A stretch of DNA of 64,000 bases from the NCBI GenBank assembly GCA_963995525.1, contig OZ023206.1:66434323-66498322 (forward strand), in the 5' to 3' direction. The translations under genes were made by a program, and so were the position numbers. Below the pieces are notes generated by a model. The model was not told where the DNA came from. It did no database searches and saw only the letters and a program-made list of their open reading frames with translations. The DNA comes from Escarpia spicata (taxonomy: Eukaryota; Annelida; Polychaeta; Sabellida; Siboglinidae). How positions within the stretch are numbered: the first letter of the stretch is position 1; each line of letters opens with the position of its first letter. This document shows positions 38,766 to 57,373 of this stretch, piece by piece.

Positions 38766-39828
38766 TGTCGAGGAAACAGCGCCATGGTCAAAGAAGCTCA
38801 ATGCGTTTTGGTCAAGCATTTGGGGGAGTGTCTCAGTGTGTCAACTGCCGGAAACTTAGATTTCACTAGAATCTCCCACTTTTAAAATAAATTCTGAGTA
38901 AATCACAGGCGTGGTATTGTTGATTGTAGTTGCAAATAGTTGGATTGTATTAAAGGGACAGTCGCACTTCGTGGCTTTTCGTTTTTATTGCAAAATCGTG
39001 TTATACGGTATAAATTATATCTATTATAGCGTACTGGCTGCCCAAAGATGCTTTTAACGAAGCAGAAATCAACTTTTGGATTGAACCGTTAAATGTTTAC
39101 AAGAATCAACGCGCTGTCACTCAAATCCCCGAATTGCGAGTTCGGAAAATTCCGCGAAACGTCTTGACCCGACGTGGGCCGAGCTTCAGATGTCAATAGT
39201 ACGCTGTCATCATGGGTTCCATGGCGCAGAACGACGATTCATCGACTGATGTAAGTTGAACAATGAAATGTCATAAGTCAGTGTTTCCCCTGGTATATAA
39301 CAAGCGAGGCGGGCCGCCTCGCCGTTTTTCTATGCCGCCTCGCCCAAAATATGCCGAAATTGCCGCCTCGTAGCGACGTCATACGCCCATTTTTTTGGCG
39401 TTCTTTCGCGATATATTCAGCGTCAGCGAGCGGGCGAAATTATATCACAAAGTCACTTATATTCCTGCATAATCACAGATTTGTAGCAACGTCGCTCAGA
39501 GCAGTTAGGATTTAACTCCATTGGACAACGTGAAAGATGTCAGTTGACCAATCACTGAATATTCCTGCGGGATCCCCGGTGTCTCCAATGGTGACACCTT
39601 GCGGAATTTCGACATACTAGAAATCTAGACATTCATGTAAAATGGCGCCCAAACGTAACTTGCGTTTTGGTTTATGACGGTGGTGGGAGTGAAAACTTTG
39701 CAGGCAGATGGCACTACGTCACTTGTGTCGAATCCGGACTCTTTTGGAGCTTAAATAAAGACCGTGCATCCTATTCACTAATCGGCACTTGTATCGAATC
39801 TGGACCCTGTTGAAGCTCAAATAGCGAC

Positions 39829-40062
39829 AGTAGTATATGGGTGGTTAACAATACGTAATCAGGGAGGGGTATGTGCTCCCATGGTCATTTTCTGATGACC
39901 TAAGGCTATTTTCTATGACTTCCGGTTCCGTTACTCCATAGCGCCATCTAGCGAATGTCATCGTTACTCCATAGCGCCATCTAGCGAATGTAATCCGTAA
40001 TCAGAGGAGGGGTATGTGCTCCCATGGTCATTTTCTGCTGACCTAAGGCTATTTTCTATGAC
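39829..40062 (+). repeat. Left terminal inverted repeat of the Polinton
   Basis: 234 bp identical to the complement of 57,134-57,367. Inside it a block of about 120 bp (CTCCCATGGTCATTTTCTG...ATCTAGCGAATG) is repeated twice. Similarity resumes weakly beyond the end for about 20 bp (CCGTTACTCCATAGCGCC). TIR ends are where protein-primed replication and integrase act. Confidence 0.97.
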
Positions 40063-40109
40063 TTCCTGTTCCGTTACTCCATAGCGCCTCTAGTGATGAG
40101 AAGTGTCTC

Positions 40110-40290
40110 TAATCGTCTCAATAACTCAACAAACAACATATAATCAAAGTAGAAACTGTTTATTTATTGTTACATATTCCAAATCGATAGGAAAAGATCG
40201 TCTCAATAACTCAACAAACAACATATAATCAAAGTAGAAACTGTTTATTTATTTATTTATTGTTACATATTCCAAATCGATAGGAAAAGT
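40110..40290. repeat. 85-bp tandem duplication carrying minus-strand poly(A) signals
   Basis: A block from TCGTCTCAATAACTCAACAA to AAATCGATAGGAAAAG is present twice. On the minus strand each copy has AATAAA hexamers (complement of TTTATT at 40,159-40,168 and 40,244-40,257), just downstream of the stop of the spliced LxCxE gene, so they probably end its transcript. Confidence 0.7.
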
Positions 40291-40312
40291 GTTTGATTGT
40301 TTGTTTGTTTGT

Positions 40313-41070
40313 TTACATATCCATATGACAACAGCCTTCATCTTCGCTGTCAGTATGACAACAAAATACCTGTCTATCACCGGTATCTACGGGAGATGGA
40401 GTCGGTTCATACCATGGAGATACCGGTTCAATGAGAGGTCTTTTCTTTATCTCACGGAGACTCGCATAGAAATGACAATGATGCTCATCCTGGATCTGTT
40501 CTTCTCTGTAAGGTAAGTATAAAAAAAACTTTGAAAACTATAGCAGCACGTTAAATCTTACATAACCACAGCGTTGCTATAACCAGACAGAGCGTTGCTA
40601 GGCAACCACAAGTTATTTTTGTGTGTGTGGACGGATGAAGGGAAGTCCCCCAGATCAGAACTGGTTAGAACTAGTTTGTGTATGAATAGGAATAAAAATT
40701 GTACACATAAACAAAATCTTGAAAACACTCATCTATTTTTTCACTATGTAACATTAATGAAGTGTCTTGTGTCTCCATACTTCCCGTCCTACACTGTTAA
40801 TGAAGTGTCTTGTGTCTGCATACATCCTGTCTCGCGACTATATTTACTATGTAAAATCCTGTCATTAACGAGCGTCTTGTTTCATGTAAGAGGAAGTTGC
40901 CAAGAACCACTATGAATAGACAGCGAAACCATCTTGAATTTGTCAAAGAATAAGGTCATTATGAATAATGTATACACGGTGCTTCTCTATCTGAGGAAAT
41001 ATAAAAGTACACAGTCCTAACCAACCAACCAACCAACCAACCAACCAACCAACCAACCTAGAGTGAGACA

Positions 41071-41109
<39 letters not shown>

Positions 41110-41547
41110 TTGAACACTTACGTGCACTCTAAGTCCGATTCTTTTGTTGATTCTTTATAATCCTCTGTGTCTTCTTCTTTTTCCTCCTCTTCCTCGTATT
41201 CTTCATCATCTGTAGCTCCTTCTCGAGCAGCGCTTAAAAAAAGATGATAGACAACTGTTAAATATGATAAATGAATAATGATAGGTTATCGTCTTGTACA
41301 GTGTCATCTTGGTCAGCATCTATAACCTATCCGTTGGACACGAGAACCCGGGTAACTATATACTTTTCATATATGTGTCAGAACTAGCGGTTAAATATAA
41401 ACAACTTCTAAGAACACTGTGTAATTACTTGACATCAAAGTAAATAATAATAATAATAGATACTCACATCTTCCTTTCTATTTCTCTCTGTTTCTCTTTC
41501 CATTCCTCTCGTATTTTAATCCAGGGTATAACTCCACGTTCAGCCAT
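40313..41547 (-). CDS. Spliced acidic early protein with LxCxE motif (oncoprotein-like), three exons
   Basis: Exons on the minus strand: 41547-41468, 41232-41122, 40505-40313; 384 nt, 127 aa plus TAA. Donors GTGAGT and GTAAGT, acceptors CTTTTTTTAAG and CTTACCTTACAG, all phases consistent. N-terminus MAERGVIPWIKIREEWKEKQ, then a Glu/Asp-rich middle, then DLECTEE, in which L-E-C-T-E is an LxCxE motif formed only by joining exons 2 and 3. The C-terminus has Cys-Cys pairs around TDSEDE (a CK2-type site) and ends CCHMDM. LxCxE next to acidic/CK2 sequence is the retinoblastoma-protein binding arrangement of E7, E1A and large T, and LxCxE proteins have been described in adintoviruses. Role inferred: push the host cell into S phase. 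It is divergent from the plus-strand genes. No homology search could be run. Confidence 0.8.
41284..41349 (+). repeat. 66-bp copy of the downstream membrane-protein gene
   Basis: Identical except one base to 53,290-53,355 in the coding region of the 99-aa membrane protein (starts GGTTATCGTCTTGTACAGTG). It sits in intron 1 of the minus-strand LxCxE gene, in the same plus orientation as its source. Confidence 0.95.
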
Positions 41548-42195
41548 CTTGTTTTGATGTTGTTGTGTTATGAAATGATTTGAAAACTTAACACACGAAC
41601 TTTCAAGATAGCCAGTCAACATCCTGTGTCATAACGAGACACCTAATTAGTTCCCTCGGTGTAACAGTAACTACGTTAGTTTTTATCAGGGCGTCTTGTG
41701 ACGTTCCGTCTCGGATTAGTCTTCCTCTTTTTAACGAACCAGTTAAAGGATGTATATCCTGTCTTTCTTTGTCCTCACTAAACTAGTCCGTAAAAATAGA
41801 TGCAACATCCCGGCCATCTTATTAAAGACAGGAAAATGCTCCGTAAGAAAAGATGGCTACATCCTGCACCTGCCTTATCGTCTATCTAACATCCTCTCAC
41901 AGTCACAAGAATGATGACTGGTTACTTTCTTTGTTTGCTCCCGTTACATCCACCACCACCACCCCCATCCGTCTACAACCACAAGACCAATCGCTGGTCT
42001 CTTTCTTTGTTTGTTCCGGTGATTGACAGCTGACTAACAGTCACAAGATTGACAGCTGACTAACAGTCACAAGTTTGATGACTGAGCACTTTGTGTGTAT
42101 ATAAACCCCGGGTAAATCGTTTAGAAAGCATAACAACTGTCGCTCTCAACTATTCGTATATTTTCAAGCATTCATCGTGAATCAAGGACAACAAG
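41548..42195. promoter_or_regulatory. Divergent early promoter region
   Basis: Lies between the minus-strand LxCxE gene and the plus-strand SSB gene. A TATATAAA box is at 42,098-42,105, about 90 bp before the SSB start codon. Upstream are two perfect 26-bp direct repeats (42,021-42,046 and 42,047-42,072, GATTGACAGCTGACTAACAG...) containing an E-box-like CAGCTG, plus looser AGTCACAAG and CTTTCTTTGTTTG repeats at 41,900-42,015. This looks like an enhancer with a TATA promoter. No TATA box was seen for the minus-strand gene. Confidence 0.6.
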
Positions 42196-42684
42196 ATGGC
42201 GTCTGCTTCTTCTGACAACACTATCAACCTGAAAGATCTAGAAACTGTAAGTGATGGCTCTTATGCTTTTGACAGACCACTAAATATTGTAACATGTGCT
42301 CTCAATCAGAAATATGTATGCTATGCATCATGTCATACCTGTAACCGCAAAGTCATTCTGATTGAGACAAAAGGTCACCATGGTACCCTCGCATGTCCGG
42401 TCCACGGCAAACAGAAGGGCACGCCTGTTTATAAATATTGTATGGGTATTTTGTTGAGTGACCGGAAAGGCACTGAACTATGGGTCACTGCATTTGACGC
42501 CATAACCCAGCGGGTTGTAGGTGGTGTATCGGCCAACGACTATATGTCACTGAAAACAGACGAAGACCGTTATCGACTACTGACCACCCTGCATGGCAAA
42601 CAGGCTATGGTGACCATCAAAAAGACATCAAAGGGAATATTCGTGACCTATTCCGTGACAGTACTTGAAGTCTTGCGACAGTAA
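42196..42684 (+). CDS. RPA-like single-strand DNA-binding protein (OB fold with zinc ribbon)
   Basis: 162 aa. Residues 40-140 resemble the C-terminal DNA-binding domain of RPA70: a zinc ribbon with C46-x2-C49 and C67-x2-H70, then YKYCMGILLSDRKG and ELWVTAFDAITQRVVG, which matches the beta strands of that OB fold. It would coat displaced strands during protein-primed replication. Preceded by a TATA box. A perfect GTAAGT donor sits in its frame after codon 17 (42,247), so the ORF may be the unspliced product of a transcript whose spliced forms encode other proteins. Confidence 0.7.
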   Translation: MASASSDNTINLKDLETVSDGSYAFDRPLNIVTCALNQKYVCYASCHTCNRKVILIETKGHHGTLACPVHGKQKGTPVYKYCMGILLSDRKGTELWVTAFDAITQRVVGGVSANDYMSLKTDEDRYRLLTTLHGKQAMVTIKKTSKGIFVTYSVTVLEVLRQ

Positions 42685-42738
42685 TTGCAGCAAGTCACCA
42701 CCGAGAAATGACCATTCTGTAATTTCCTATGTTGTAGT

Positions 42739-42971
42739 TTGAACACCTCAGCGAGTGCATGGACGATGATAGTCGCCATTTCAATTCACCTGTGGGATCT
42801 AAAACTGTGAAAAGGAGTCATCCGGATGACAGCGATGATCAGGCAAGTGTCATTTTATGTGGCTCGTGTAAATGGAGTAGTGATGATGATGACGACGATG
42901 ATGTTCTTCACACTAGTAGTGATTTACGGGAGAGTGTAGAGAAGATAATAATAATAATAATAATAAGATAA
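42739..42971 (+). pseudogene. Acidic early protein, 5' part, interrupted by LINE
   Basis: An acceptor (CCTATGTTGTAG) precedes an open frame in the phase left by the donor at 42,246/42,247, giving FEHLSECMDDDSRHF, a KRSHPDDSDDQ block and a CGSC pair followed by SS and an Asp run (WSSDDDDDDD). The frame enters LINE sequence at about 42,945 and ends in its TAA-rich tail. A GC-AG-type donor (CAG/GCAAGT) lies at 42,842 in phase 0. The frame at 43,281-43,892 is in the same register, so the LINE probably split one gene. If spliced it would share the first 17 codons of the SSB. Confidence 0.45.
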
Positions 42972-43263
42972 CTTCTATTGCGCCTAAATCCTTGGAAACC
43001 AAGCTCAGAGGCGCATCAAAACAAAAGGGTTGGTCAATCTCAAAGTCCATAAGTAGTTTTCCAGTTGTCAACAGATGGGTCAAGGCGCTAGGGAGCTAAG
43101 GTGGATAAGCAAGGTTGTAAAGATACGTTTTTAAATGACGACGGAATTTTGTAATATTTTCAACTGATCTAACACTAAGAGGAAGCATATTCCAAAGAGT
43201 TGGTGCAGCAACAGAAAAAGCCCTAGTTCCAATGTTAGTGTTGGCTCTAGACCAATGCCATTC
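42950..43263 (-). mobile_element. CR1/L2-type LINE 3' end inserted in the Polinton
   Basis: Read on the minus strand it codes NIGTRAFSVAAPTLWNMLPL, then SVRSVENITKFRRHLKTYLY, the standard C-terminal end of CR1/L2-like polymerases, followed by a 3' tail of TTATTATTATT at the left edge. It is strongly 5'-truncated (about 315 bp). No clear target duplication. Confidence 0.85.
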
Positions 43264-43280
43264 AACGACGCACGGAGGAG

Positions 43281-43892
43281 ATGATAGACGAGGATGTATT
43301 TATGTGCACTATGTCCAGCGCCTGTGTGATGTACGCATCCAAGATACTATGTCATGAGTACAAAACCATTAACAAGTCACTGTACAGCGTGGATCAGTCC
43401 AAGATGTGGCATGCATTGAATGTGGCAGTGGACCAAATCGGCTATGCATCGCATACACCGGAGTGGGGTGACTATACCATCCCACGTGTGAAAGAGTCTC
43501 TGTATGCGCGAGGTATATCCTTACTGGATGAAGGTAAGAGGAATGCGGCGGCGACATCTACTCCTCACCGAAATGAAGAAGACCTGATCGCAACGGAGGA
43601 AATGAAGGACTTGCATCAGTTGACCACAACTGCAGCCAACGCCTGTATTCGTCGTGTAGCCAACAGACTGGAACGCTCCTTCGAATATCAAGAAAGTGAC
43701 ATGTACAAAGTGAGCACTGATATCATCTACGACACTTTGAAGTGGACAGTGAGACACATGAGATGGAAAGCGGACTTTCCAGAGTGGTTACGTGATAATA
43801 CTGTACCACGTCTCGAAGCCATGCTGCGTACTCACGACGTAAGATTGGCGTGTGACGAGAGGCACCATGTCTTTGACGACCCTTTCTATTAA
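43281..43892 (+). CDS. Unknown early protein with a duplicated domain
   Basis: 203 aa. Two halves look alike: residues about 15-90 (..ACVMYASKILCHEY.., HTPEWGDYTIPRVKESL) and about 115-200 (..ACIRRVANRLERSF.., DFPEWLRDNTVPRLEAML). Each is a mostly helical block ending in PEW-x5-7-PR-x3-L. I do not recognise the family. It contains ILCHE, an IxCxE variant of the Rb-binding motif, though this lies in a probable helix. The first Met is 18 nt after the LINE fragment, so the original start was probably upstream and this is the 3' part of a larger gene. Confidence 0.55.
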   Translation: MIDEDVFMCTMSSACVMYASKILCHEYKTINKSLYSVDQSKMWHALNVAVDQIGYASHTPEWGDYTIPRVKESLYARGISLLDEGKRNAAATSTPHRNEEDLIATEEMKDLHQLTTTAANACIRRVANRLERSFEYQESDMYKVSTDIIYDTLKWTVRHMRWKADFPEWLRDNTVPRLEAMLRTHDVRLACDERHHVFDDPFY

Positions 43893-44060
43893 TTGGTGTC
43901 TGACGAGAGATACCCTGTGTGTTAATTAACACTGGTGTCCGACGAGTGATCACCTGTGTTAATTATTATTATTATTATTAACACTGGTGTCTGATGAGAG
44001 AACACCTGTGTGTGTGTGTGTGTGTTAATTAACAATGGTATCTAACGAGATATATATTTA
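43893..44060 (+). repeat. Three to four copies of a GGTGTC(T/C)GACGAG hairpin repeat
   Basis: Copies of about 50 bp each contain GGTGTCTGACGAGAGATACC or variants, whose ends pair as short stems, followed by CTGTGTGTTAATTAAC. They immediately follow the stop codon at 43,892. A possible 3' UTR or regulatory structure. Confidence 0.6.
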
Positions 44061-44134
44061 AAAAAGAAAAGAAAAGAAGAGTCACGTATACTTATCATGA
44101 TATAATCTTGTTCTTTTTTTATTTTGTTTTATAG

Positions 44135-44803
44135 GAACATGATTATGGTGTCGGATTAGCGTCTATACATCGCGCATATATGAATAACGATGATGATGAT
44201 GATTATGACACGCCGCCGCCACTAAAGAAAATCCCGCGTCGATTACGTGTTGAAGTATCGTTACATCAACGTCTCCTTGAGCTGTTACATAACGAGCGTC
44301 ATCAACAACAGCAGCACCCTCACACACCAACGTTGGACATGTCGTGTGATGACGCCACCGCGTCAACATCATCTCCTGATGACATCATCCAGCTAGACAT
44401 GACCTGTGATGATGATGACATCATCCAGCTAGACATGACCTGTGATGATGATGATGATGACGACGACGACGACGCAACAACAACAACAGAATACGAAGAA
44501 CTGAAGGGGGATAGATCGATATTCGCTTTATCCCCCAATGGCCATGTAATATGGGCGACATTTTTAGACTGTATGTCTCTGGGGTACAGAGAACCTTTTG
44601 CAGCTATAGCTTCTCTAGAAAGAGACATTATGCGTCTATCGAACGCCCTCTATTCATCGACACCACGCACTCTTAAACGATCAGTGCAGGACTGTTGTCT
44701 TTCGATTGCGACAAATATTATAAAAGATGAATATATTGACGCAATGATGTCAATCATCCGCAAAGAACTATATAGTCATGTAGATTTTGTTGACACAAAT
44801 TAG
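44135..44803 (+). CDS. Acidic early protein exon, DM(S/T)CDD repeats
   Basis: A strong acceptor (TTTTTTTATTTTGTTTTATAG) precedes an open frame in phase 0 that continues through the Met at 44,180 to the stop at 44,803; 222 codons if spliced, 207 aa from the internal Met. It begins EHDYGVGLASIHRAYM, then a PPPLKKIPRRLRVEV basic patch, three copies of LDM(S/T)CDD each next to acidic runs, then a folded-looking C-terminal domain (FALSPNGHVIWATFLDCMSL). Phase fits the SSB leader donor at 42,246 and the GC donor at 42,841. MTCDD and MSCDD are distant LxCxE look-alikes. Family not recognised. Confidence 0.6.
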   Translation, partial: EHDYGVGLASIHRAYMNNDDDDDYDTPPPLKKIPRRLRVEVSLHQRLLELLHNERHQQQQHPHTPTLDMSCDDATASTSSPDDIIQLDMTCDDDDIIQLDMTCDDDDDDDDDDATTTTEYEELKGDRSIFALSPNGHVIWATFLDCMSLGYREPFAAIASLERDIMRLSNALYSSTPRTLKRSVQDCCLSIATNIIKDEYIDAMMSIIRKELYSHVDFVDTN

Positions 44804-44828
44804 TTGTGTGTGTGTGTGTGTGTGTGTA
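44804..44828. repeat. Short (TG)n tract
   Basis: Directly after the stop codon of the acidic early protein. Confidence 0.9.
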
Positions 44829-44840
44829 CTATAACAAGGA

Positions 44841-44879
44841 GGAAATGCGCCCCTACGATAGTTGGGGTAAGAGGCGCCT
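44841..44879 (+). promoter_or_regulatory. Conserved intergenic motif, copy 1
   Basis: GGAAATGCGCCCCTACG, then one variable base and TAGTTGGGGT; it recurs at 49,745-49,783, each about 40-50 bp after a stop codon. CCCC/GGGG and GCGCC/GGCGC can pair into a stem. Probably a 3'-end or transcription signal of the element. Confidence 0.6.
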
Positions 44880-44970
44880 CGTTGTAGTATACTTAACATA
44901 ATCATAGTAGTAGTAGTAGTAGTAGTAGGTTTTTCGATTTTTTGAATATTGTAATTGATAGTATAATAGA

Positions 44971-44976
44971 AATAAA
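44971..44976 (+). terminator. Poly(A) signal AATAAA
   Basis: AATAAA 168 bp after the stop of the acidic early gene; plausible end of the early plus-strand transcripts. Confidence 0.5.
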
Positions 44977-45038
44977 GGTACATGTAACAGCCTTCTTGCT
45001 TGTCCGTTGTTCTTTCGTTTCAAAGAGTGACTTTGCGG

Positions 45039-45040
<2 letters not shown>

Positions 45041-45125
<85 letters not shown>
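45041..45125. repeat. (CA)n microsatellite, 85 bp
   Basis: Perfect CA repeat inside the Polinton between the early genes and the polymerase. Confidence 0.97.
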
Positions 45126-45127
<2 letters not shown>

Positions 45128-45229
45128 TCGTTTTTTATACGTAGCCACGTCATCACATAGTGTCCCTGTTTACATATATAGATAGACAAGGATCCTTCGT
45201 CCTTCAGTTGTAGATGGAGACGCGGCGTC

Positions 45230-45487
45230 ATGAAGAAGCACGTTTGTCGTCACTGTGGTATCGTCAGCGATACATACGAGGATTTGCAACGTCACATCCA
45301 TCTAAGTCATTTATCGGTACCACCACCACGAGTTATCGAAGACGATCATGCCTACTACAACAAAGGACCGTCGCGAGTGGCGCCATCTTCTGAATCCAAA
45401 ATGAACCACCCATCGATGTCAGGTATGTTCAAAAGAGTTCGCGAGACGATACACCTTGTTACGTCACACGAAGACGTCATGTGGTAA
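45230..45487 (+). CDS. C2H2 zinc-finger ORF overlapping polymerase start
   Basis: 85 aa. A C2H2 finger lies at the N-terminus (CRHCGIVSDTYEDLQRHIHL plus SH). Overlaps the polymerase frame by 32 nt in another register. Polymerases of this family often carry N-terminal zinc fingers, so this may be the true polymerase N-terminus separated by a frameshift or a small intron (a CAG/GTATGT donor is at 45,422, but no acceptor restores phase), or a separate small protein. Confidence 0.5.
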   Translation: MKKHVCRHCGIVSDTYEDLQRHIHLSHLSVPPPRVIEDDHAYYNKGPSRVAPSSESKMNHPSMSGMFKRVRETIHLVTSHEDVMW

Positions 45488-48400
45488 GGTACCTGTGGAG
45501 AAAAACGATATCCACCGCTGCGAGATTTGCGCACGTGAATTCACAAGACGTGACAACTTGTTACGTCATATCAAGGTATGTAGAAGACGAGAAGAAGTCA
45601 TGAGGAACAAGAGGAAGTCAACCAAGCGAACGAGACGCGAAGAGCCACCACCAAGTGACGACGACAACAACATCGATCCCATACAACCTCCCCTCTTGGA
45701 CAACGATCATCTGCAAGATGTCGTTCGAAACCACTGGTCAACCATCAGAAGTCACGTGAACAGAGGACCCATTCAATCCACTTTCAATTACAGGGTGACG
45801 ACACCGGACACGACTCATCTAGAACCATCCTTGAAGATCATGTTTCGTCAACAGAAACACGCCTTTAAGATTAATCTTAGTTACGGATTTGTGCTGAGGA
45901 ACAAGATCACCAATAGGTATAGATATTATCATTCATCAAGTAACTGTTGTGGACGTTACCTCGATGAACCGTGTCTGATTACCAACACCGAAGACTTTGA
46001 TGTATTTCTGGAGCGTATCCGAGAAACAGACGTGTTGCAGTGGGCTATCAATCAACGTCCGAACAGTCAATGGGTATGCGAGAGGGTCACGAACGTCACC
46101 TTCTTCGTCAACCACATCGTAGACCATCCTATAGGATGCGTGGACATCACCGTTTCCAGGTACATCAAGAATAACTTTGCTGTCATCAGTCTAGAAAGAG
46201 AAGTCAACAACAACAAGAAGTACACCGACAATCTGTGCTTCTTCCGTTGTCTGGCTCTGCATCATGGATGTGACCCACGTTACCTGGAACCCACTGTGAA
46301 GGTACTCTACGAGAAGTACGAGCAGCAAGACGAAGGAGGAGGAGTGTCTATGAAAGAGTTTGAGGGAGTGACAATGGACGACCTCTATCGTATCGAGACC
46401 ACCTTTGAGATCAATGTGTGCGTCTACACCCTCATCGAACCAACGGAAGTAGAAGGTGGAAAGGTGACCGCCGAACTCGTACGTCGTTCATTGTGTCACT
46501 ATTCCGACACCTTGTACATCAATATGTACGAGACACACTTTTCCTATATACAAGACATCAACATGTACTGTCACTCATATCGTTGTAGGAAATGTGGTGA
46601 CTCGTTGTGGAAAGACGCGTATCAACTAGAGAGACACGAGCGTAGGTGTAAGGGTGGCGTGCGAAAAATCTATCCCCGTGGTGTCTACCATCCGACGCCG
46701 ACAGTCTTCCAGCGTTTGGACGACGAAAACATTCATGTCCCCGACTCCTTACGGTATTACCCCTATCGTGCTACCTTCGACTTCGAGTCCTGGTTCGATA
46801 CGTCACACCTTCCATCGGACAGCAACAAGGTTCATTGGGTGTCTCGTCACGTGCCGTTGAGTGTGTCACTGGCGAGTAACGTGCCTGGATTCGAAGAAGC
46901 GCGATGTCTTATCACTGATGGTGATAGCAACAAGTTGGTGTCCGACATGATGTCCATGCTTCAGTCTATGAGCAATGCTGCCTACGAAATCATGATAGAC
47001 GATTACGAGAGCGTCCTTCAAGAACTCGCGTTAGAAATCGCGACCTGGGACGAGAACGAGGCGGCAGCGGTGAAGGAGGACAAGGAGTCTAAGCGAAAAC
47101 CAACCAATCCCTACAAGACACTCATGGGTCAATTGTACGGTTGGCTTCATCAGTTACCCGTCATCGGATTCAACTCGAGCAGGTACGATCTGAACGTCAT
47201 CAAACAGTTCCTGATATCCTACTTCCTATCCACACCAAAAGAAAGAGAAGAAGAGAACGAGGAGATACAGGAGGAGGAGGAGGAGGAGGAGGAGGAGGAG
47301 GAGGAAGAGAACGAGGATCCTGGAGACTTTCACGTCATCAAACGTGGCAACACGTTTATGTGTCTATCGACGGATAACCTGAAATTCCTTGATATGACTC
47401 ATTATATCGCCCCAGGATTCTCGTACGATAAGTACCTGAAAGCGTACGGTTGCGAGGTTACGAAAGGTCACTTCCCATACGAATACATGGACAGGTTGGA
47501 GAGACTCGACGACACCGCTCTACCTCCCATAGAGGCCTTTTTCAGTAGACTGAAGAACGAAGGTATTTCCGATGAGGACTATACCCGATGTCAAGAGGCG
47601 TGGCGAGACAACAACATGAAGACGTTGCGAGATTTTCTCGTCTGGTACAACAACAGAGATGTTGTACCGTTCTTAGAGGCCATCGACAAACAGTTTGCCT
47701 TCTACCAACAACGTGGTCTCGACATGTTCAAACAAGCCATCAGTATACCCGGTTTGACCTTGAGCCACCTGTTCAACTATGTACCGGAGAAGACCTTCTT
47801 CACCCTCTTCAATGAGACGAACAAGGATGTCCATCAACTGATCAGAGATAACATCGTTGGAGGACCTTCGCTCATCTTCACCAGACATCACGAGAAAGGG
47901 GTCACGAAGATACGTCGGAAGGATTACGGTGATGCAGCTCGAACGTGTCAGTCCATTGTCGGCTATGATGCGAATGCATTGTATCTGTGGTCTCTATCAC
48001 AGGACATGCCAACAGGATGGTATACACGACGACGAGAAGAGAAGGACTTCCGACCGGAAGCAGCACAGCCCACCGGACAGATGGCCTCCGAATGGTTGTC
48101 GTGGGAGTCCGAAAGCACGGGACGCGTCATACGTCACCAGTCCAACGGACGAGAGAAGCGCATCGGTAAACTCCTGGTGGACGGTTGGTGCAGCGAAACA
48201 AACACAGCCTATCAGTTTCACGGATGCTTCTATCACGGATGTCCGTGCACCGGTCTTGACGTCAACAAGGTCAACGGGAAACCCATGGCTCATCTCCTCG
48301 ACGAAACACGAAAGAACACGAGCTACCTTCGTCACTTTGTCGAGGTCATCGAGATGTGGGAATGCGAGTGGAAGGTCACGAAACGCGATCCGTGTGTGAA

Positions 48401-49697
48401 ACTGTTTCTGAACGCCGCCTTTCGTCGTCGTCGACGCGACGTGCCATGGAAGATGACATCACAAGAGATCCTGACAGGGGTACGTAATGGCAGGGTTTTC
48501 GGAATGATTCAGTGCGACATTCACGTACCGGAGGAATTGCACGCGCACTTTGCCGAGATGCAGCCCATCTTCAAGAACATTCACATGACCCGCGATGACC
48601 TCGGACCGTATATGCGTCGATACGCCGAAGAACACGATATCATGAAAACCCCGCGTCGCATGCTCATCGGAAGTTATCGTGGAGATAAGATCTTGCTCGC
48701 AACACCTCTCTTGCGATGGTATCTGGAACTCGGACTGGAGGTGACCCACATCTATCAGGTCATCGAGTACACACCGATCGCCTGCTTCCGACGATTCGGT
48801 GAGGCGGTGTCCACTGCGCGTCGCGAAGGAGACGTCCACCCCGACAAGGCCATGATCGCGGACACCAACAAACTGATGGGCAATTCTTCCTATGGGAAAT
48901 TTATCACCAACGTCGATAGGCACCGCGAAGTCAGCTATTGTACAGAGAAGAGGGCATCGATGGTCATCAACAATCGTCGCTTCCGGCAACTCGACGTCGT
49001 GACCAACGATGCGTACGAGATAGAGATGCACAAGCACACCATCAAATACACCCTGCCCACATACGTGGGATTCTTCGTGTTGCAGTGGGCCAAACTGCGC
49101 ATGTTGGAGTTCTACTACGACTTCATGGTCAGGTACGTGGAACGTCCTCTGTTCGAGTACTGCGAAACCGATACGGACAGCGCCTATTTGGCTCTAGCAG
49201 GTGAGTCCGTCGACGACCTCGTGACCCCGACACTACGCGAAGACTACTTTCGTAACCGTTCCGAATGGCTACCGTCCGAATGTTGCGATGATCATCGATT
49301 CGAGTACGTACGCTGTCGACTGGCTGGACGTGTGTGGGACGGTACCGAGACGTGTTGCGAGACGCGCAGGGCGTACGACAAGAGAACACCGGGACTCTTC
49401 AAGGTCGAATGGTCAGGCGACTGTTTCCTGGGTCTGTGCAGCAAGACCTACTATTGTTCGGGTACGGTCGATAAATACAGCACCAAGGGTCTAAACAAGC
49501 GACTCAACACCATCAACAAGCAGGTGTTCCTGGACGTGCTCACCAATCGACGGAGCGGAAGCGGAAACAACCGTGGCTTCCAGGTGAATCACTCGTCTGT
49601 GTTGACGTACATGCAGGAACGCGCAGCCTTGACCTACTTCTATGCCAAGCGCGTGGTCCACGAAGACGGAGTCACAACGGGACCTGTGGATGTGTGA
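45456..49697 (+). CDS. polB: Protein-primed family B DNA polymerase
   Basis: 1,413 aa. In order: C2H2-type finger about 22-42 (CEICAREFTRRDNLLRHIKV then C), a conserved NLCFFRCLALHHG region about 260, a second finger about 377-395 (CRKCGDSLWKDAYQLERH), exonuclease motifs FDFESWFD (about 441), GFNSSRYDLN (about 570) and YNNRDVVPF (about 731), a poly-Glu run at about 606-620, and polymerase motifs YDANALYLWS (A, about 835), LMGNSSYGKF (B, about 1,140) and ETDTDSAYLA (C, about 1,237). It replicates the linear genome from a protein primer at the TIRs. All catalytic motifs look intact. The longest gene of the element; a copy of the conserved 3' motif follows. Confidence 0.97.
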   Translation: MLRHTKTSCGKVPVEKNDIHRCEICAREFTRRDNLLRHIKVCRRREEVMRNKRKSTKRTRREEPPPSDDDNNIDPIQPPLLDNDHLQDVVRNHWSTIRSHVNRGPIQSTFNYRVTTPDTTHLEPSLKIMFRQQKHAFKINLSYGFVLRNKITNRYRYYHSSSNCCGRYLDEPCLITNTEDFDVFLERIRETDVLQWAINQRPNSQWVCERVTNVTFFVNHIVDHPIGCVDITVSRYIKNNFAVISLEREVNNNKKYTDNLCFFRCLALHHGCDPRYLEPTVKVLYEKYEQQDEGGGVSMKEFEGVTMDDLYRIETTFEINVCVYTLIEPTEVEGGKVTAELVRRSLCHYSDTLYINMYETHFSYIQDINMYCHSYRCRKCGDSLWKDAYQLERHERRCKGGVRKIYPRGVYHPTPTVFQRLDDENIHVPDSLRYYPYRATFDFESWFDTSHLPSDSNKVHWVSRHVPLSVSLASNVPGFEEARCLITDGDSNKLVSDMMSMLQSMSNAAYEIMIDDYESVLQELALEIATWDENEAAAVKEDKESKRKPTNPYKTLMGQLYGWLHQLPVIGFNSSRYDLNVIKQFLISYFLSTPKEREEENEEIQEEEEEEEEEEEEENEDPGDFHVIKRGNTFMCLSTDNLKFLDMTHYIAPGFSYDKYLKAYGCEVTKGHFPYEYMDRLERLDDTALPPIEAFFSRLKNEGISDEDYTRCQEAWRDNNMKTLRDFLVWYNNRDVVPFLEAIDKQFAFYQQRGLDMFKQAISIPGLTLSHLFNYVPEKTFFTLFNETNKDVHQLIRDNIVGGPSLIFTRHHEKGVTKIRRKDYGDAARTCQSIVGYDANALYLWSLSQDMPTGWYTRRREEKDFRPEAAQPTGQMASEWLSWESESTGRVIRHQSNGREKRIGKLLVDGWCSETNTAYQFHGCFYHGCPCTGLDVNKVNGKPMAHLLDETRKNTSYLRHFVEVIEMWECEWKVTKRDPCVKLFLNAAFRRRRRDVPWKMTSQEILTGVRNGRVFGMIQCDIHVPEELHAHFAEMQPIFKNIHMTRDDLGPYMRRYAEEHDIMKTPRRMLIGSYRGDKILLATPLLRWYLELGLEVTHIYQVIEYTPIACFRRFGEAVSTARREGDVHPDKAMIADTNKLMGNSSYGKFITNVDRHREVSYCTEKRASMVINNRRFRQLDVVTNDAYEIEMHKHTIKYTLPTYVGFFVLQWAKLRMLEFYYDFMVRYVERPLFEYCETDTDSAYLALAGESVDDLVTPTLREDYFRNRSEWLPSECCDDHRFEYVRCRLAGRVWDGTETCCETRRAYDKRTPGLFKVEWSGDCFLGLCSKTYYCSGTVDKYSTKGLNKRLNTINKQVFLDVLTNRRSGSGNNRGFQVNHSSVLTYMQERAALTYFYAKRVVHEDGVTTGPVDV

Positions 49698-49744
49698 TGG
49701 TGACGATTGCTGTGGTCTACGCCGAAACACTACTGACACAAAGC

Positions 49745-49783
49745 GGAAATGCGCCCCTACGTTAGTTGGGGTTATAGGCACCA
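49745..49783 (+). promoter_or_regulatory. Conserved intergenic motif, copy 2
   Basis: Second copy of GGAAATGCGCCCCTACG-N-TAGTTGGGGT, 48 bp after the polymerase stop. The core differs from copy 1 by one base, while the flanks differ, which points to selection or a recent copy. Confidence 0.6.
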
Positions 49784-49840
49784 CTTTGCTGTCACGTGGT
49801 TAGTAGGCAGACAGTAGACAAAAAAAAGTTACTTAGATAG

Positions 49841-50035
49841 ATGTCACGCAATCCATCGTCACAGAACATCATGTCACGGACGCGAGTGGTCGTAGGAACA
49901 TTGACACTAGGAACGATCGGAGTGCTGCTGCTGTACATCCTATACGAGTTGTTCTACGTTCCCCTTCGCTCTCCATGTGGTGGAGGTATTGTCGTATTAT
50001 CATCTAACGTAACAGAGAACGCAACCGTCTACTAG
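49841..50035 (+). CDS. Small membrane protein
   Basis: 64 aa with one transmembrane segment about residues 15-40 (VVVGTLTLGTIGVLLLYILY) and a tail with two N-x-T glycosylation-type sites (NVT, NAT). Fifteen bases before the ATPase start. Family not recognised; small membrane proteins are common in this position in Polintons. Could be a virion or entry accessory protein; that is inference. Confidence 0.6.
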   Translation: MSRNPSSQNIMSRTRVVVGTLTLGTIGVLLLYILYELFYVPLRSPCGGGIVVLSSNVTENATVY

Positions 50036-50049
50036 ATACTAGAACGATC

Positions 50050-50673
50050 ATGGATACGCGATGGAAACATCCCTTCACCTGTATAATCGCGGGACCAACA
50101 GGATGTGGTAAGAGTACCTTCGTGACGCGTATTCTACGTCACGCTGCAACGATGATAGATCCACCTCCGGAGAAGATCACGTGGTGTTACGGAGAGTGGC
50201 AGAACGCCTACGCATCCATAGATAACGACTTGATACGATTCGAGGAAGGTTTGCCGAAGGGTGATTTCGATGCATCGACGCGAAACTTCGTGGTCATAGA
50301 CGATCTGATGGCGGAAACGGATGAAAGGGTCACGACCTTGTTCACGAAAAAGAGTCATCATCAGAACACCTCCGTTCTCTATCTCGTGCAGAACCTGTTT
50401 CCAAAAAATAAGGAGAGTCGCACGATCAGTCTGAACGCGCAATACATGGTGCTCTTCAAGAATCCACGCGACGCGTCGCAGATAGGTCACTTGGCACGAC
50501 AGATGTATCCGAGACAGCTGAAGTTTGTACAGGAATCGTTCAAAGACGCCACGTCATTACCATACGGTTATCTCCTGATTGATCTGAAACAGGACACACC
50601 TGAAGACATGCGTCTGCGCACGACCATCTTTCCGGACGACGGTGTTCAGTACGTGTACCAACCCAAGCTATAA
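50050..50673 (+). CDS. Genome-packaging ATPase (FtsK/HerA type, A32-like)
   Basis: 207 aa. Walker A GPTGCGKST at residues 15-23, Walker B FVVIDDLM at 80-87, a sensor region HHQNTSVLYLVQNLFP, then ARQMYPRQLKFVQESFKDAT. Typical length and layout for the Polinton ATPase, which pumps DNA into the capsid. All key residues are present. Confidence 0.95.
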   Translation: MDTRWKHPFTCIIAGPTGCGKSTFVTRILRHAATMIDPPPEKITWCYGEWQNAYASIDNDLIRFEEGLPKGDFDASTRNFVVIDDLMAETDERVTTLFTKKSHHQNTSVLYLVQNLFPKNKESRTISLNAQYMVLFKNPRDASQIGHLARQMYPRQLKFVQESFKDATSLPYGYLLIDLKQDTPEDMRLRTTIFPDDGVQYVYQPKL

Positions 50674-50710
50674 GACGACTGCGCATGGACATCGTCTGTT
50701 CAGTTGCAGG

Positions 50711-51136
50711 ATGTCCGAGCTCGTGAAGAGACATATCCTATGCATACAGGCTCTCAACAGATACAAGAGCACGAAATTGAGACGAGCCATCATCAACAAC
50801 GCTGACGCTGATCTCTTGTGTGCATTGGCTGAGTGTGCCTACAACATATTGAAGAAGAACATTCCCTTGACTCCCGTACAGAGACAACGTTTGAATAAAT
50901 ACAAAACAAAACTGCGCGAGTTGTCAGAGAGAGGTCAGACAGCAGATAGGAGACGTCGTATTCTGCTGCAGGACTTGGGACGAAGAAACGTACCGGTCAG
51001 GAGACGTCGTCGACGAGGTAATAATAATAATAACCAGAACGAAGAGAACCAGACCGGTGGTTTCCTGGGTGCTTTGCTAGCACCGTTGGCTACTTCGATC
51101 ATTCTACCCTTGCTCAAAGAGGTGTTACTCAAGTAG
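50711..51136 (+). CDS. Conserved Polinton protein with C-terminal hydrophobic helix
   Basis: 141 aa from MSELVKRH at 50,711. The frame is open further upstream to 50,642, but that part overlaps the ATPase and has no family look. Helical N-terminal half (RRAIINNADADLLCALAECA, PLTPVQRQRLNKYK), then a very basic stretch and GGFLGALLAPLATSIILPLL at the C-terminus. I recognise this plan from many Polintons. Role unproven; the C-terminal hydrophobic helix suggests membrane or capsid-interior activity. Confidence 0.7.
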   Translation: MSELVKRHILCIQALNRYKSTKLRRAIINNADADLLCALAECAYNILKKNIPLTPVQRQRLNKYKTKLRELSERGQTADRRRRILLQDLGRRNVPVRRRRRRGNNNNNQNEENQTGGFLGALLAPLATSIILPLLKEVLLK

Positions 51137-51141
51137 ACGAC

Positions 51142-51930: not shown

Positions 51931-51942
51931 AGACGACGACGC

Positions 51943-52089
51943 ATGATGACGTGGAGCATTCGTCTGTTTAGCGGTATCGTTTACGCCACGCTTCGCATCG
52001 TGACCGGAATCACCGTCGACTATCTTATACGACTATGGCATCTCAGAGGAAAAAGCTCCAGGAAGTCTACTTCGATCCTACTAAGGTAG
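51943..52089 (+). CDS. Small membrane-type ORF overlapping integrase start
   Basis: 48 aa. ATG ATG start 13 bp after the previous stop; sequence MTWSIRLFSGIVYATLRIVT then GITVDYLIRLW gives an amphipathic or membrane helix, followed by a basic tail. Overlaps the integrase start by 55 nt in another frame. The position in a gap between tightly packed genes supports it, but it may be chance. Confidence 0.45.
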   Translation: MMTWSIRLFSGIVYATLRIVTGITVDYLIRLWHLRGKSSRKSTSILLR

Positions 52090-52763
52090 GGAGTTACGGG
52101 GGTCTCGCGTCTTTGCGACGAGTCGACTTCCGACCTATACAACGTGTACCGAGAAAGATCGTCGAACAATGGCTATCGGAACAGAACGCCTATACTCTAC
52201 ACAAACCGGTCAGAGTTCATTTCAAGAGGCGACGCGTGGTCGTCGGAGGTCGGAATCAACAGTGGCAAGCCGATCTCGTCGACGTGGCCAGTCTGAAAAA
52301 AGAAAACGACGGTACGACCTTCCTACTCACGGTGATCGATGTCTTCTCGAAAGTCGCCCGATGCGTTCCCCTGAAGAACAAGTCTGCGACGTCCGTGTCG
52401 AAGGCGCTGGAAGGACTCTTCACCAACGACGGTGTTCGACCGCTGTTGTTGCAGACCGATAGAGGTCTGGAATTCTTTAACCGTAGCGTTCGAGATGTAT
52501 TGGAAAAGTACGGTATCCAACACTTCTCCACCTACAACGAGGAGACCAAGGCGAGCGTCGTGGAACGCTTCAATCGCACCCTAAAGACGCGGATGTGGCG
52601 ATACCTGACACACAAAGAAACGTGGCGATACATCGATATCCTTCCGGATCTGGTGCGGACGTACAACGACACACCCCACCGTAGCATCGAGATGGCTCCG
52701 TCGCAGGTGGATGACACTAATCAGGAAGGTGTGGCAGACCTTGTACGGTGGTCATCACGGTAA
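52035..52763 (+). CDS. Retroviral-type integrase, catalytic part
   Basis: 242 aa. N-terminal part with GSYGGLASLRR, typical of Polinton integrases, then the rve fold: D80 in WQADLVDV, D142 in LLQTDRGLEF, E177 in SVVERFNRTLK (34 residues between the last two, as in DD35E enzymes). It inserts the linear genome with 6-bp target duplication, matching AGCGAC at the element ends. After VDDTNQE the frame runs into a stop while the C-terminal domain continues in another frame from about 52,725, so the gene is broken by a one-base-type shift. Confidence 0.92.
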   Translation: MASQRKKLQEVYFDPTKVGSYGGLASLRRVDFRPIQRVPRKIVEQWLSEQNAYTLHKPVRVHFKRRRVVVGGRNQQWQADLVDVASLKKENDGTTFLLTVIDVFSKVARCVPLKNKSATSVSKALEGLFTNDGVRPLLLQTDRGLEFFNRSVRDVLEKYGIQHFSTYNEETKASVVERFNRTLKTRMWRYLTHKETWRYIDILPDLVRTYNDTPHRSIEMAPSQVDDTNQEGVADLVRWSSR

Positions 52764-53115
52764 GGGCGTACCCAAGTACCACGTGGGGGATCGCGTACGC
52801 ATCAGCAAGGTCAAGAGACGGTTCGACAAAGGTTACATGGCGAATTGGACAGAGGAAATATTCACGATACGCGAGGTGCATCCATCCGATCCACCCGTCT
52901 ATCGTCTAACGGACGATCTCGGAGAGACACTGGACGGTACCTTCTACGAGCCGGAGTTGCAGAAGGTGACGGTTCCGATCGATAAACTGTACCGCGTGGA
53001 ATCGATAGTGCAGAGACGCAAGGTAGGAAGGCGAAGGGAGGTGTTGGTGAAATGGTTTGGATACCCTTCGAAATTCAACAGTTGGATTGATGCCAAGGGT
53101 CTCGTTGGACTATAA
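52711..53115 (+). pseudogene. Integrase C-terminal domain and chromodomain (frameshifted)
   Basis: The open frame contains PKYHVGDRVRISKVKRRFDK and WTEEIFTIREVHPSDPPVYR (SH3-like integrase C-terminal domain), then YRVESIVQRRKVGRRREVLV and KWFGYPSKFNSWIDAKGLV (chromodomain). It is the direct continuation of the integrase but in a different frame. The Met at its start is inside integrase sequence and is unlikely to be a real start. The chromodomain would steer integration to chromatin marks. Confidence 0.85.
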
Positions 53116-53155
53116 AGACTAGTCACCTGTCCGACGAGATGTCATTCATCCACTC

Positions 53156-54245: not shown

Positions 54246-54246
54246 G

Positions 54247-54687
54247 ATGAATTACAACGACTACTACGCACGACAAGCGGGAGGTGCGCTTCCCTATTTT
54301 GTAGGTGCCCGCTACCAACGAGGACACGGTCTAGGAAGTCTATTCGGAGGTCTACTACGTACCATCATGCCACTCGTCAAGAGAGGCGCCGTGGCTCTTG
54401 GAAAGAGAGCGGTGTCGACCGGTGCACGTATAGCCGACGACGTCCTGTCGGGGGAGAACATCAAAACGTCTGCCAAACGTCGCGTTACGGCCGCCGGTAG
54501 GGACATGTTGAGTCAAATCATGAGCCCTGCCGGTGTACAAGCACGTAAGTCGAGGAATATAAGACACTCCTTCCCTAGGAATCGAGTCAGTACAGTCAGG
54601 AGACGGACGACTAACAAGACACGCCGCCGCCGCCGCTTACAAAAGACACGCGAAGCCGACATATTCGACGATGGCGTTCGTTCATAA
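54247..54687 (+). CDS. Basic virion core protein (adenovirus pX/pVI-like)
   Basis: 146 aa. Gly-rich start YARQAGGALPYFVGARYQRG, then HGLGSLFGGLLRTIMPLVKR, an amphipathic helix, KRAVSTGARIADDVLSGENI, and an Arg-rich tail (RRRTTNKTRRRRRLQK). This layout is common in adintoviruses, where it is compared with adenovirus core/pVI proteins: possible membrane-active helix and DNA condensation. Begins directly after the previous stop and overlaps the capsid gene by 17 nt. Confidence 0.7.
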   Translation: MNYNDYYARQAGGALPYFVGARYQRGHGLGSLFGGLLRTIMPLVKRGAVALGKRAVSTGARIADDVLSGENIKTSAKRRVTAAGRDMLSQIMSPAGVQARKSRNIRHSFPRNRVSTVRRRTTNKTRRRRRLQKTREADIFDDGVRS

Positions 54688-55987
54688 ACAATCGTGTGAG
54701 GGACTCAAGAGCGAACTAGATATCTTCACCGTGCCTCCGACTCAGACCAGTATCATCGACAGTCATGAGGTGCAACATCAACCCATGTCGTCACTCGAGT
54801 CGGGTGGACCGATAGAATTCGTGATACCCGGTTCCGGAGACGATTACATGGATCTCGCCAGCACGAGGCTACACGTTCAAGCGAAAATAACCAATGCCGA
54901 CGGAAGCGACCTCGCTGCCGACGCTCCCGTCGGTCCAGTGAATAACTGGCTCCATTCCCTTTTCAGTCAGGTCGACGTCTATCTGAACGGAACACTCGTC
55001 ACCCAGTCGAGCAACACGTACCCGTACCGCGCCTACATAGAGACGCTGCTGAGTTACGGGACCGACGCCAAGGAGACGCAACTGACGAGTCAGCTGTGGT
55101 ACAAGGATACGAGTGATTGTATGGAATCCGTCGAAATAGTCGACGGAATTGCAGCCAACAAGGGGTTCATGACCAGACGCAACTTTACGACTACGAGTCA
55201 CGTGGTCGATATGATTGGTCGTCTCCACGTGGACCTCTTCCTCCAAGATAAATTCCTCATCAACAACGTAGAGGTCAAGATACGTCTGGTACGCAGCAAG
55301 GACACCTTCGCACTCATGGCTGATGGAGACGACGCCGGCTACACGATAAAGATCATCAATGCCACGCTGTTCGTCAAGAAGACCACGCTCAATCCTGCTG
55401 TGCATATAGCTCACATCAGGACCCTCGAAAAAACCACAGCCAAGTACCCAATACGACCCGTCAACTGCAAAGTCTACTCCATTCCCACAGGCACCCGCTC
55501 GCACACGCACGAGAATCTCTTTCTTGGTACTCTTCCAAAACGTCTCGTGCTGTGCTGCATCGACAACGACTCCTTCAACGGAAGTTACACTAAAAACCCG
55601 TTCAACGCAAAAAACAACAAAATCAACTTCCTGGCCGTGTACGTGGACGGACGACAGATACCCTCCAAACCTTTCCAGCCCAAATTCGACACCGACCTCT
55701 TCGTCAGGTCCTATCACAACATGTTCACCTCGACAGGTAAGCTGTGGCAGGACGAAGGAAACGATTTGACACGCAACGACTTCCGCCACGGCTACACCTT
55801 CTTCGGCTTGGATCTCACTCCTGACGCGTGCGACGACTGCTCCTTCCATCTGGTACAAAAGGGCAACCTGCGCATGGAGATTCATTTCTCCGAAGCACTG
55901 ACCACCACTGTGAACGTCATCGTCTACGCCGAGTTCGAGGCTGTCCTGGAGATCGACAAGAATCGTAACATCATCCTCGATCATTGA
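54671..55987 (+). CDS. Major capsid protein (double jelly-roll)
   Basis: 438 aa. Contains KSELDIFTVPPTQTSI, GPIEFVIPGSGDDYMDL, NNWLHSLFSQVDVYLNGTLV and, near the end, FHLVQKGNLRMEIHFSEALT. It has the wording of the Polinton protein family that includes nematode F54H12.2, established as the double jelly-roll hexon-like capsid protein. The stop overlaps the protease start (ATGA). The full length looks intact. Confidence 0.93.
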   Translation: MAFVHKQSCEGLKSELDIFTVPPTQTSIIDSHEVQHQPMSSLESGGPIEFVIPGSGDDYMDLASTRLHVQAKITNADGSDLAADAPVGPVNNWLHSLFSQVDVYLNGTLVTQSSNTYPYRAYIETLLSYGTDAKETQLTSQLWYKDTSDCMESVEIVDGIAANKGFMTRRNFTTTSHVVDMIGRLHVDLFLQDKFLINNVEVKIRLVRSKDTFALMADGDDAGYTIKIINATLFVKKTTLNPAVHIAHIRTLEKTTAKYPIRPVNCKVYSIPTGTRSHTHENLFLGTLPKRLVLCCIDNDSFNGSYTKNPFNAKNNKINFLAVYVDGRQIPSKPFQPKFDTDLFVRSYHNMFTSTGKLWQDEGNDLTRNDFRHGYTFFGLDLTPDACDDCSFHLVQKGNLRMEIHFSEALTTTVNVIVYAEFEAVLEIDKNRNIILDH

Positions 55988-56439
55988 TGGAAACCCTGCA
56001 CATCACCCGTCTACTCTTCCGGGATACGTACGCCAAGGACATCGTTCGTAGGGTCGTACCCAAAGACGTACTCCTCACCGAAACGATAGACACTTACCCG
56101 GTTGCCTTCGTCTGCAACACGCACAACAGAACGAAACCGGGAGAACATTGGATAGCACTGTACGTGGACGATAATAGGCAAGGTGAATACTTCTGCTCGT
56201 ACGGCTTGCCGCCACAACACGTCGAATTCCGACGATTCATGAATAAACATTGCGTACAATGGACTCATAATTCAAAGAGACTTCAGAGTCTCGTATCTAA
56301 TGTTTGCGGACAATACTGTGTTGCTTATCTCATGTTTCGTTGTCGTGGACTTCCTATGAAGGAATTCGTGAAAGGTTTCGGCACTGATCTGGTAGCAAAC
56401 GATTGTCGTGTGTTCGACTGGCTTAAACTATTGAACTAA
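55984..56439 (+). CDS. Adenain-like maturation cysteine protease
   Basis: 151 aa. H54 in GEHWIALYVDD, Q100 and C107 in LQSLVSNVCGQYC are the catalytic His, oxyanion Gln and nucleophile Cys of the adenovirus protease/Ulp1 group. At the acidic position, where related proteases read YFDSYG or LEPFG, this one reads YFCSYG (C70); E67 is close by. Shorter than adenain (about 200 aa), as usual in Polintons. It would cleave capsid and core precursors. The last gene of the late cluster. Confidence 0.9.
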   Translation: MMETLHITRLLFRDTYAKDIVRRVVPKDVLLTETIDTYPVAFVCNTHNRTKPGEHWIALYVDDNRQGEYFCSYGLPPQHVEFRRFMNKHCVQWTHNSKRLQSLVSNVCGQYCVAYLMFRCRGLPMKEFVKGFGTDLVANDCRVFDWLKLLN

Positions 56440-57133: not shown

Positions 57134-57367
57134 GTCATAGAAAATAGCCTTAGGTCAGCAGAAAATGACCATGGGAGCACATACCCCTCCTCTGATTACG
57201 GATTACATTCGCTAGATGGCGCTATGGAGTAACGATGACATTCGCTAGATGGCGCTATGGAGTAACGGAACCGGAAGTCATAGAAAATAGCCTTAGGTCA
57301 TCAGAAAATGACCATGGGAGCACATACCCCTCCCTGATTACGTATTGTTAACCACCCATATACTACT
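57134..57367 (-). repeat. Right terminal inverted repeat of the Polinton
   Basis: Complement of 39,829-40,062. The inner side extends into further copies of the same subrepeat at 56,980-57,130, so the right end has more units than the left. Confidence 0.97.
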
Positions 57368-57373
57368 AGCGAC

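Follow-up and report, generated by a model that had tools for sequence, protein, structure and literature searches.

The window is the whole stretch of Escarpia spicata DNA that we analysed, 64,000 nucleotides long. It contains a Polinton of 17.5 kb (39829-57367), with a small three-exon gene on the minus strand near its left end. The features are, in window positions:

39823-39828 and 57368-57373: target duplication AGCGAC, 6 bp
39829..40062, plus strand: left terminal inverted repeat, 234 nt, 100% alike
40256..40261, minus strand: polyadenylation-type signal AATAAA, about 50 nt beyond the stop, read directly
40313..40505, minus strand: exon 3, 193 nt including the stop, with the EIKKRPLIEPVSPWY module and C-terminal CCHTDSEDEGCCH
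40502..40505, minus strand: exon-3 share of LECTE (A GAA)
40506..41121, minus strand: intron 2, 616 nt, GT-AG
41122..41132, minus strand: exon-2 share of LECTE (TTA GAG TGC AC)
41122..41232, minus strand: exon 2, 111 nt, acidic, ending SDLEC-T; donor AC/GTAAGT
41233..41467, minus strand: intron 1, 235 nt, GT-AG
41468..41547, minus strand: exon 1, 80 nt, MAERGVIPWIKIREEWKEKQREIERK; donor AT/GTGAGT; kept in copies
42196..42684, plus strand: replication protein A (RPA) C-terminal-like protein, the divergent neighbour (PF08646, E 5.8e-12)
43281..43892, plus strand: orf203, with a second LxCxE (LACDE, residue 189)
45456..49697, plus strand: DNA polymerase B (PolB), organellar and viral type (PF03175, E 7.8e-10)
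50050..50673, plus strand: ATPase, putatively of packaging type (PF02456 Adeno_IVa2, E 8.4e-6)
52035..53115, plus strand: rve integrase and chromodomain in two overlapping frames (PF00665, PF00385)
54671..55987, plus strand: putative major capsid protein (MCP), no Pfam match
55984..56439, plus strand: adenain-like protease (PF00770, E 0.0024, under the gathering score)
57134..57367, minus strand: right terminal inverted repeat, 234 nt, 100% alike

The element has several features of Polintons and adintoviruses: a viral-type PolB, an rve integrase with a C-terminal chromodomain, and terminal inverted repeats with a 6-bp duplication. (Polintons make 6-bp target duplications.) We take 54671..55987 to be the major capsid protein from the usual Polinton gene order and its wide homologues. 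It has 3962 homologues, and those named among the 120 listed come from Lamellibrachia satsuma, from Ridgeia piscesae, and from a bin with the name "endosymbiont of Escarpia laminata". From these names the host would probably be a siboglinid tubeworm. PolB has 1704 homologues among 7997 scored. We also looked for an OTU-like N-terminal domain on PolB, which is the adintovirus criterion in PMC11071296. At E ≤ 0.01, Pfam gave DNA_pol_B_2 and two zinc-finger matches only.

A scan of genome contigs gave two Polinton loci, both of them PolB contigs from bins labelled bacterial: L001 (QGON01000029.1, from a tubeworm endosymbiont bin) and L002 (NZ_JASJAV010000039.1, from a Breoghania bin). These are probably animal sequence in public bins. 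L001 starts at PolB, so the left end is absent, and a search of the genome behind it (run without a positive control) gave no match to the product of the spliced gene. Scans of viral contigs with PolB, the PolB alignment, and the MCP alignment gave no Polinton loci. The integrase of the window copy is probably broken, because it occupies two frames here and one 360-aa frame in L001 (matched by position and length).

Two neighbouring frames have short acidic motifs of their own. The LACDE of orf203 lies near the C-terminus; it is kept in the related copies L045 and L035 and was not seen in L037 or in the distant L018 relative. (The AlphaFold model of orf203 has a mean pLDDT of 41, which is too poor for use.) orf207 (44180-44803) has repeated LDMTCDD-type acidic stretches (MSCDD, MTCDD, and MTCDD), with the variants MTCFDD, MTCLDD, and VTCDD in its relatives. 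Reverse transcriptase matches lie at 60041-61948, in two adjoining minus-strand frames.

An earlier note on this DNA had described three minus-strand exons with GT-AG sites, consistent phases, and 127 uninterrupted codons, and its coordinates, sites, and frame all hold. The spliced exons (80 + 111 + 193 = 384 nt) give 127 codons and a stop. The gene is transcribed toward the left terminal repeat and away from the RPA-like gene. The note was also right that LECTE (L61-E62-C63-T64-E65) is coded partly by exon 2 and partly by exon 3: the second splice junction falls inside the Thr codon and splits the motif into 11 nt (41132-41122) and 4 nt (40505-40502). The motif is flanked by acidic residues, with a CK2-like S-D-L-E directly upstream. 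The CK2-type DSEDE between cysteine pairs does exist (residues 116-120, flanked by CC112-113 and CC122-123), but it is 51 residues downstream of LECTE. Intron 2 also contains a plus-strand ORF, in translation, at 40595-40915.

The idea that splicing acts as a switch for the motif is overstated. The motif does form only across the junction, and when the exon-2 frame is read into intron 2 it ends SDLECT-stop, which cuts the motif to LECT. But without any splicing the frame stops directly after exon 1 and gives a 27-aa peptide, as in any such gene. Loss of the motif itself is limited to retention of intron 2 once intron 1 has been removed.

By itself, the exon chain is not beyond chance. We took 200 random 1.5-kb host stretches (from the window outside the element, and partly overlapping) and scored them with approximate splice matrices. 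A chain of at least 127 amino acids, with at most two introns and sites no weaker than the weakest here, was possible in 37 of the 200, and a chain of at least 120 amino acids carrying LxCxE in 5 of the 200. The gene's own stretch permits another chain, of 152 amino acids. Because equally long chains are found in 37/200 host stretches, the chain proves little alone, and it is the sister copies that show the gene to be real. LxCxE turns up in 3.1-3.5% of composition shuffles of the spliced product. The product matches an ELM-like pattern, and so do 7.0% of its shuffles. Across 14 proteins of the element, LxCxE is expected by chance in 0.45 and observed in two; 5.7% of shuffled sets reach two.

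A DNA search of the animal's own genome (assembly of 1.06 Gb) gave at least 73 matches, with 40 of 424 candidates scored. We number the loci of the related copies with an L. Sixteen copies, including the one in the window, are full-length and 96-100% identical. The earlier note had proposed sister copies as a check on the splice sites, and the check came out in favour of the gene: each of the other 15 full-length close copies has LECTE, unchanged exon lengths, and intact sites at all four inner splice positions. Two of these have a broken frame (L012 and L011, which also lacks the start codon). Among the 16 copies, no column is gapped in 384 exon bases, versus 59 over 851 intron bases (where simple repeats occur). 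Exons have substitutions no less often than introns do (16/384 versus 21/851), and the pooled dN/dS within the close copies is 0.86. Because of these two results, we attribute the identity of LECTE in the 16 copies to their youth and not to selection. The close copies drift after insertion.

Selection can be seen in the diverged copies. We computed dN/dS (NG86) for 29 mostly diverged pairs, which share sequences and are not independent. In 26 of them dN/dS is 0.14-0.36 and the upper bound of the bootstrap is below 1. For the window copy, dN/dS is 0.29 with L045 (bootstrap 0.11-0.76), 0.26 with L035 (0.13-0.51), 0.20 with L034 (0.10-0.35), 0.18 with L056 (0.08-0.32), and 0.20 with L057 (0.10-0.38). 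We make no selection call for two close pairs, L044-L045 at 0.67 (0.00-1.33) and L034-L036 at 1.37 (0.37-5.71). The third pair not counted as selected is L034c with the window copy, for which dS is not computable. Several diverged copies are broken: exon 2 has a stop in L045 and in L057, and exon 3 has a stop in L056 and a frameshift in L037. Part of dN is therefore post-insertion noise.

Some copies are incomplete. Exon 1 was not found in L033, L034, L036, L040, L044, or L058, and exon 3 was not found in L043 or L059; L041 and L042 are exon 3 only. Where the donors and acceptors are present they are kept, even when exon 1 is only 39-70% alike. (The exceptions are L037, whose second donor has TT for GT; L044, which keeps GT in a weaker donor; and L058, which is without a recognisable exon-2 acceptor.) Because the close copies keep the sites, the lengths, and LECTE, and because the diverged copies show purifying selection, we judge that the gene is almost certainly real and spliced.

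The gene also occurs in unusual arrangements. At three places (L020/L048/L019 on C9, L033/L050/L040 on C6, and L036/L049/L034 on C10), exons 2 and 3 and the terminal inverted repeat occur twice, inverted, about 9-12 kb apart. In their middle stretches nothing matches the Polinton proteins of the window at E ≤ 1e-6, and these places are probably non-autonomous forms. A region of C3 (G000:C3:60103502-60158538, with L038 and L039) has eighteen exon-2 sites at intervals of mostly 2.9 kb; the portion of it that we read contains units of exons 1-3, the terminal inverted repeat, and pieces of the genes for MCP and RPA. Elsewhere on C3 (G000:C3:52173828-52225467), four exon-2 sites are spaced 17.2 kb apart, which is about the length of the whole element. 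This could possibly be a head-to-tail Polinton array.

Searches with the spliced product gave no relative. Pfam gave three weak matches (E 0.46-0.87, far from the cut-off) and no T-antigen domain, the best match among PDB sequences had E 1.6, and among about 5.8 billion proteins there were 28 candidates and none at E ≤ 10.

What might this gene do? The product would be a small acidic adaptor, probably disordered, with a probably helical segment from exon 1, then ESDLE-[C/Y]-T completed across the second junction, then an exon-3 module (EIKKRP ... PPSPWY). In forms with Cys, including the window copy, LECTE may dock on the B pocket of a host retinoblastoma-family (Rb) protein. Docking would drive the cell into S phase, so that viral DNA can be replicated, and the gene would presumably act early. 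By analogy with viral LxCxE proteins, an acidic and probably disordered stretch with LECTE and S-D-L-E could dock on a pocket protein. We hold this explanation as a whole tentatively, at a little short of an even chance. A tumour-virus-like Rb role is plausible, and Rb binding in particular is only partly supported. The S-D-L-E that abuts the motif fits the +1/+3 acidic rule for CK2, as given in PMC12197514, which also covers viral LxCxE proteins docking on the pocket protein and a zinc CR3.

The relatives complicate this explanation. Exon 2 is a variable acidic run that ends ESDLE-[C/Y]-T. This ending is unchanged in the exon-2 copies that similarity search read as far as the key codon, where only Cys or Tyr was seen. 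After it comes EE in 12 of 13 copies of exon 3 and DE in the other. The copies with Cys are the window family, L044, L045, the upstream one of the two exon-2 copies in the C6 element, and L056-L059 (which are damaged or incomplete and were found by a pattern that allowed only Cys or Tyr). Those with Tyr are L034-L039, L060, L061, and the other exon-2 copy in C6, the second one. A pattern search of the genome gave 67 places, 32 with Cys and 35 with Tyr (19 of the Tyr places are within 80 kb of C3); this pattern allowed only these two residues and so cannot show that others are absent, and the script that read part of the exon-2 copies was limited in the same way. On C6, in L033 and L040, the two candidate copies of exon 2 (LECT and LEYT) lie upstream of one exon 3 and are possible alternative exons.

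The earlier note had held that sister copies without LxCxE would count against it. For part of the family this is the case: all 15 close copies have LECTE, but several diverged families have LEYTE. One of the latter, L035, has no interruption that we could see in its three exons, and therefore a working gene need not have LxCxE. S-D-L-E is present in the LEYTE forms as well. In a tree of exons 1 and 2 from ten copies (with a midpoint root and no outgroup), the window copy and L045, both with Cys, nest inside the Tyr lineages with good support. The midpoint root splits the window copy, L045, and the Tyr lineages from a Cys clade of L056, L057, and L059. This arrangement implies at least two changes of state on the tree. 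Either Cys changed to Tyr and then back to Cys, or Cys may have been gained twice. (We considered LEYTE as the ancestral state and dropped it, because the clade on the far side of the midpoint root has LECTE too, as L056-L059 show.)

These data bear on the main alternative, which is that this is a real spliced Polinton gene in which LxCxE is incidental. The selected unit would then be ESDLExT together with EIKKRP/PPSPWY, it would bind some other host factor, and Cys and Tyr would be nearly equivalent. The change between Cys and Tyr in several families, with L035 uninterrupted and the flanks unchanged, speaks for this alternative and against docking, and so does the motif's chance of about 3% per product. 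Also, 11 columns are invariant among 13 copies of exon 3 (E2, H8, F12, L16, E18, K20, P23, S29, W31, D55, and G57), and none of them belongs to the motif; the Glu of the motif itself (column 1) is replaced by Asp in one copy of the 13. But LECTE occurs on both sides of the midpoint root, in the clade of the window copy and in the opposite one, so Cys was kept or regained, and among the exon-2 copies that similarity search turned up, Cys and Tyr are the only residues at this position. We think that an incidental motif could well be the right answer, although the balance tips somewhat against it.

Exon 3 seems to have a history of its own. Between the window copy and L035, identity is 94% in the 400 bp upstream, 91% in exon 1, 85% in intron 1, 81% in exon 2, 83% in intron 2, 68% in exon 3, and 60% downstream. 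The dip in exon 3 is also seen against L034, L036, L037, and L038 and is absent against L044 and L045. Between L035 and L037, exon 3 (75%) is just under intron 2 (80%). For the window copy and L060, dS is 0.08 in exon 1 and is saturated and uncomputable in exon 3. The exon-3 tree differs from the tree of exons 1 and 2: it groups the window copy with L034, L056, and the long-branched L057. The simplest reading is that exon 3 may have been exchanged between lineages. The A-type of exon 3 has a CCHTDSEDEGCC-like end; the B-type is without it, and has lost the CC/CC pairs. Against more diverged copies, the 3' half of intron 2 (within 40506-41121) and the 400 bp that precede exon 1 (41548-41947) are better conserved than exon 3, which suggests that they may contain cis-acting signals.

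Could the whole region be cis-acting DNA by the terminal repeat (promoter, packaging, or replication signals), with a long spliced frame by accident? The order of conservation fits, with the upstream 400 bp and intron 2 above exon 3 for L035 and, where compared, for L034, L036, L037, and L038, and chains of this length are common by chance. However, dN/dS is low with upper bounds below 1 in 26/29 pairs, the exons of the 16 copies have no gapped columns while their introns have many, and the splice dinucleotides are kept across families, and we consider this very unlikely. Nor is it credible that this is a captured or flanking host gene outside the element: it is spliced, whereas the other named frames of the element read as single frames, but it lies inside the terminal repeats, at the element's end, and copies of it turn up next to the repeat, and next to the RPA-like gene, at many genomic sites, which bears out the earlier note's claim that the gene belongs to this Polinton.

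The docking explanation can be extended to the family. This would be a family of Polinton early genes with an Rb-docking motif built by splicing, toggling between LECTE (docking) and LEYTE (non-docking), with exon 3 exchanged between copies; that is, a modular adaptor diversifying against the host. As a whole, this extension is unlikely. If a spliced gene under selection in an invertebrate element does have an Rb-type motif, this would suggest that capture of the cell cycle by LxCxE is not confined to the tumour viruses of vertebrates. LECTE and LEYTE occur naturally side by side in one genome and offer a ready-made test of the motif.

How does this gene compare with known systems? In the literature that we sampled, which was a part of the whole, we found no published case in which an LxCxE is put together across a splice junction. 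A literature search also gave no paper on LxCxE in adintoviruses or Polintons, or on a Polinton in a tubeworm. Oncoid genes are reportedly described in the original adintovirus paper, by Starrett et al. in 2021. Like those oncoids, ours is a small gene of a Polinton-type element with integrase and PolB, and it is recognised by a short motif. It differs in being multi-exon, in building its motif at a junction, in its Cys/Tyr family, and in its invertebrate host. In PMC11071296, the oncoid class is defined by short linear motifs alone; LECTE is such a motif in the window copy, but it is not in the LEYTE relatives. PMC10812802 says that adintovirus oncoid genes resemble Rb-interacting proteins, citing the original adintovirus paper.

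The likeness to papillomavirus E7 that the earlier note had drawn is loose. Both are small acidic proteins with LxCxE, but our product lacks the CxxC zinc-binding CR3 (it has only CC/CC pairs) and has no Pfam family near the cut-off. Nor does its LxCxE have CK2 serines right behind it: DSEDE comes 51 residues later, and S-D-L-E lies directly upstream. (E7 has a CxxC-type zinc domain.) In polyomavirus large T and superT, as here, LxCxE depends on splicing, which in superT sets the number of copies: superT carries a duplicated LxCxE via an extra splice, according to PMC9007360. In large T, however, the motif lies within the second exon, whereas here the junction splits the motif's Thr codon, and there is no Pfam T-antigen domain in our product.

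The last comparison is with adenoviruses. Polintons are often placed near the origin of this group and of other DNA viruses. Adenovirus E1A is a spliced gene near the left terminal repeat, and its LxCxE has acidic neighbours; all of this is shared with the gene in the window. But E1A has its motif inside a single exon and is directed away from the repeat, whereas here the motif straddles a splice junction and the gene is directed toward the repeat.
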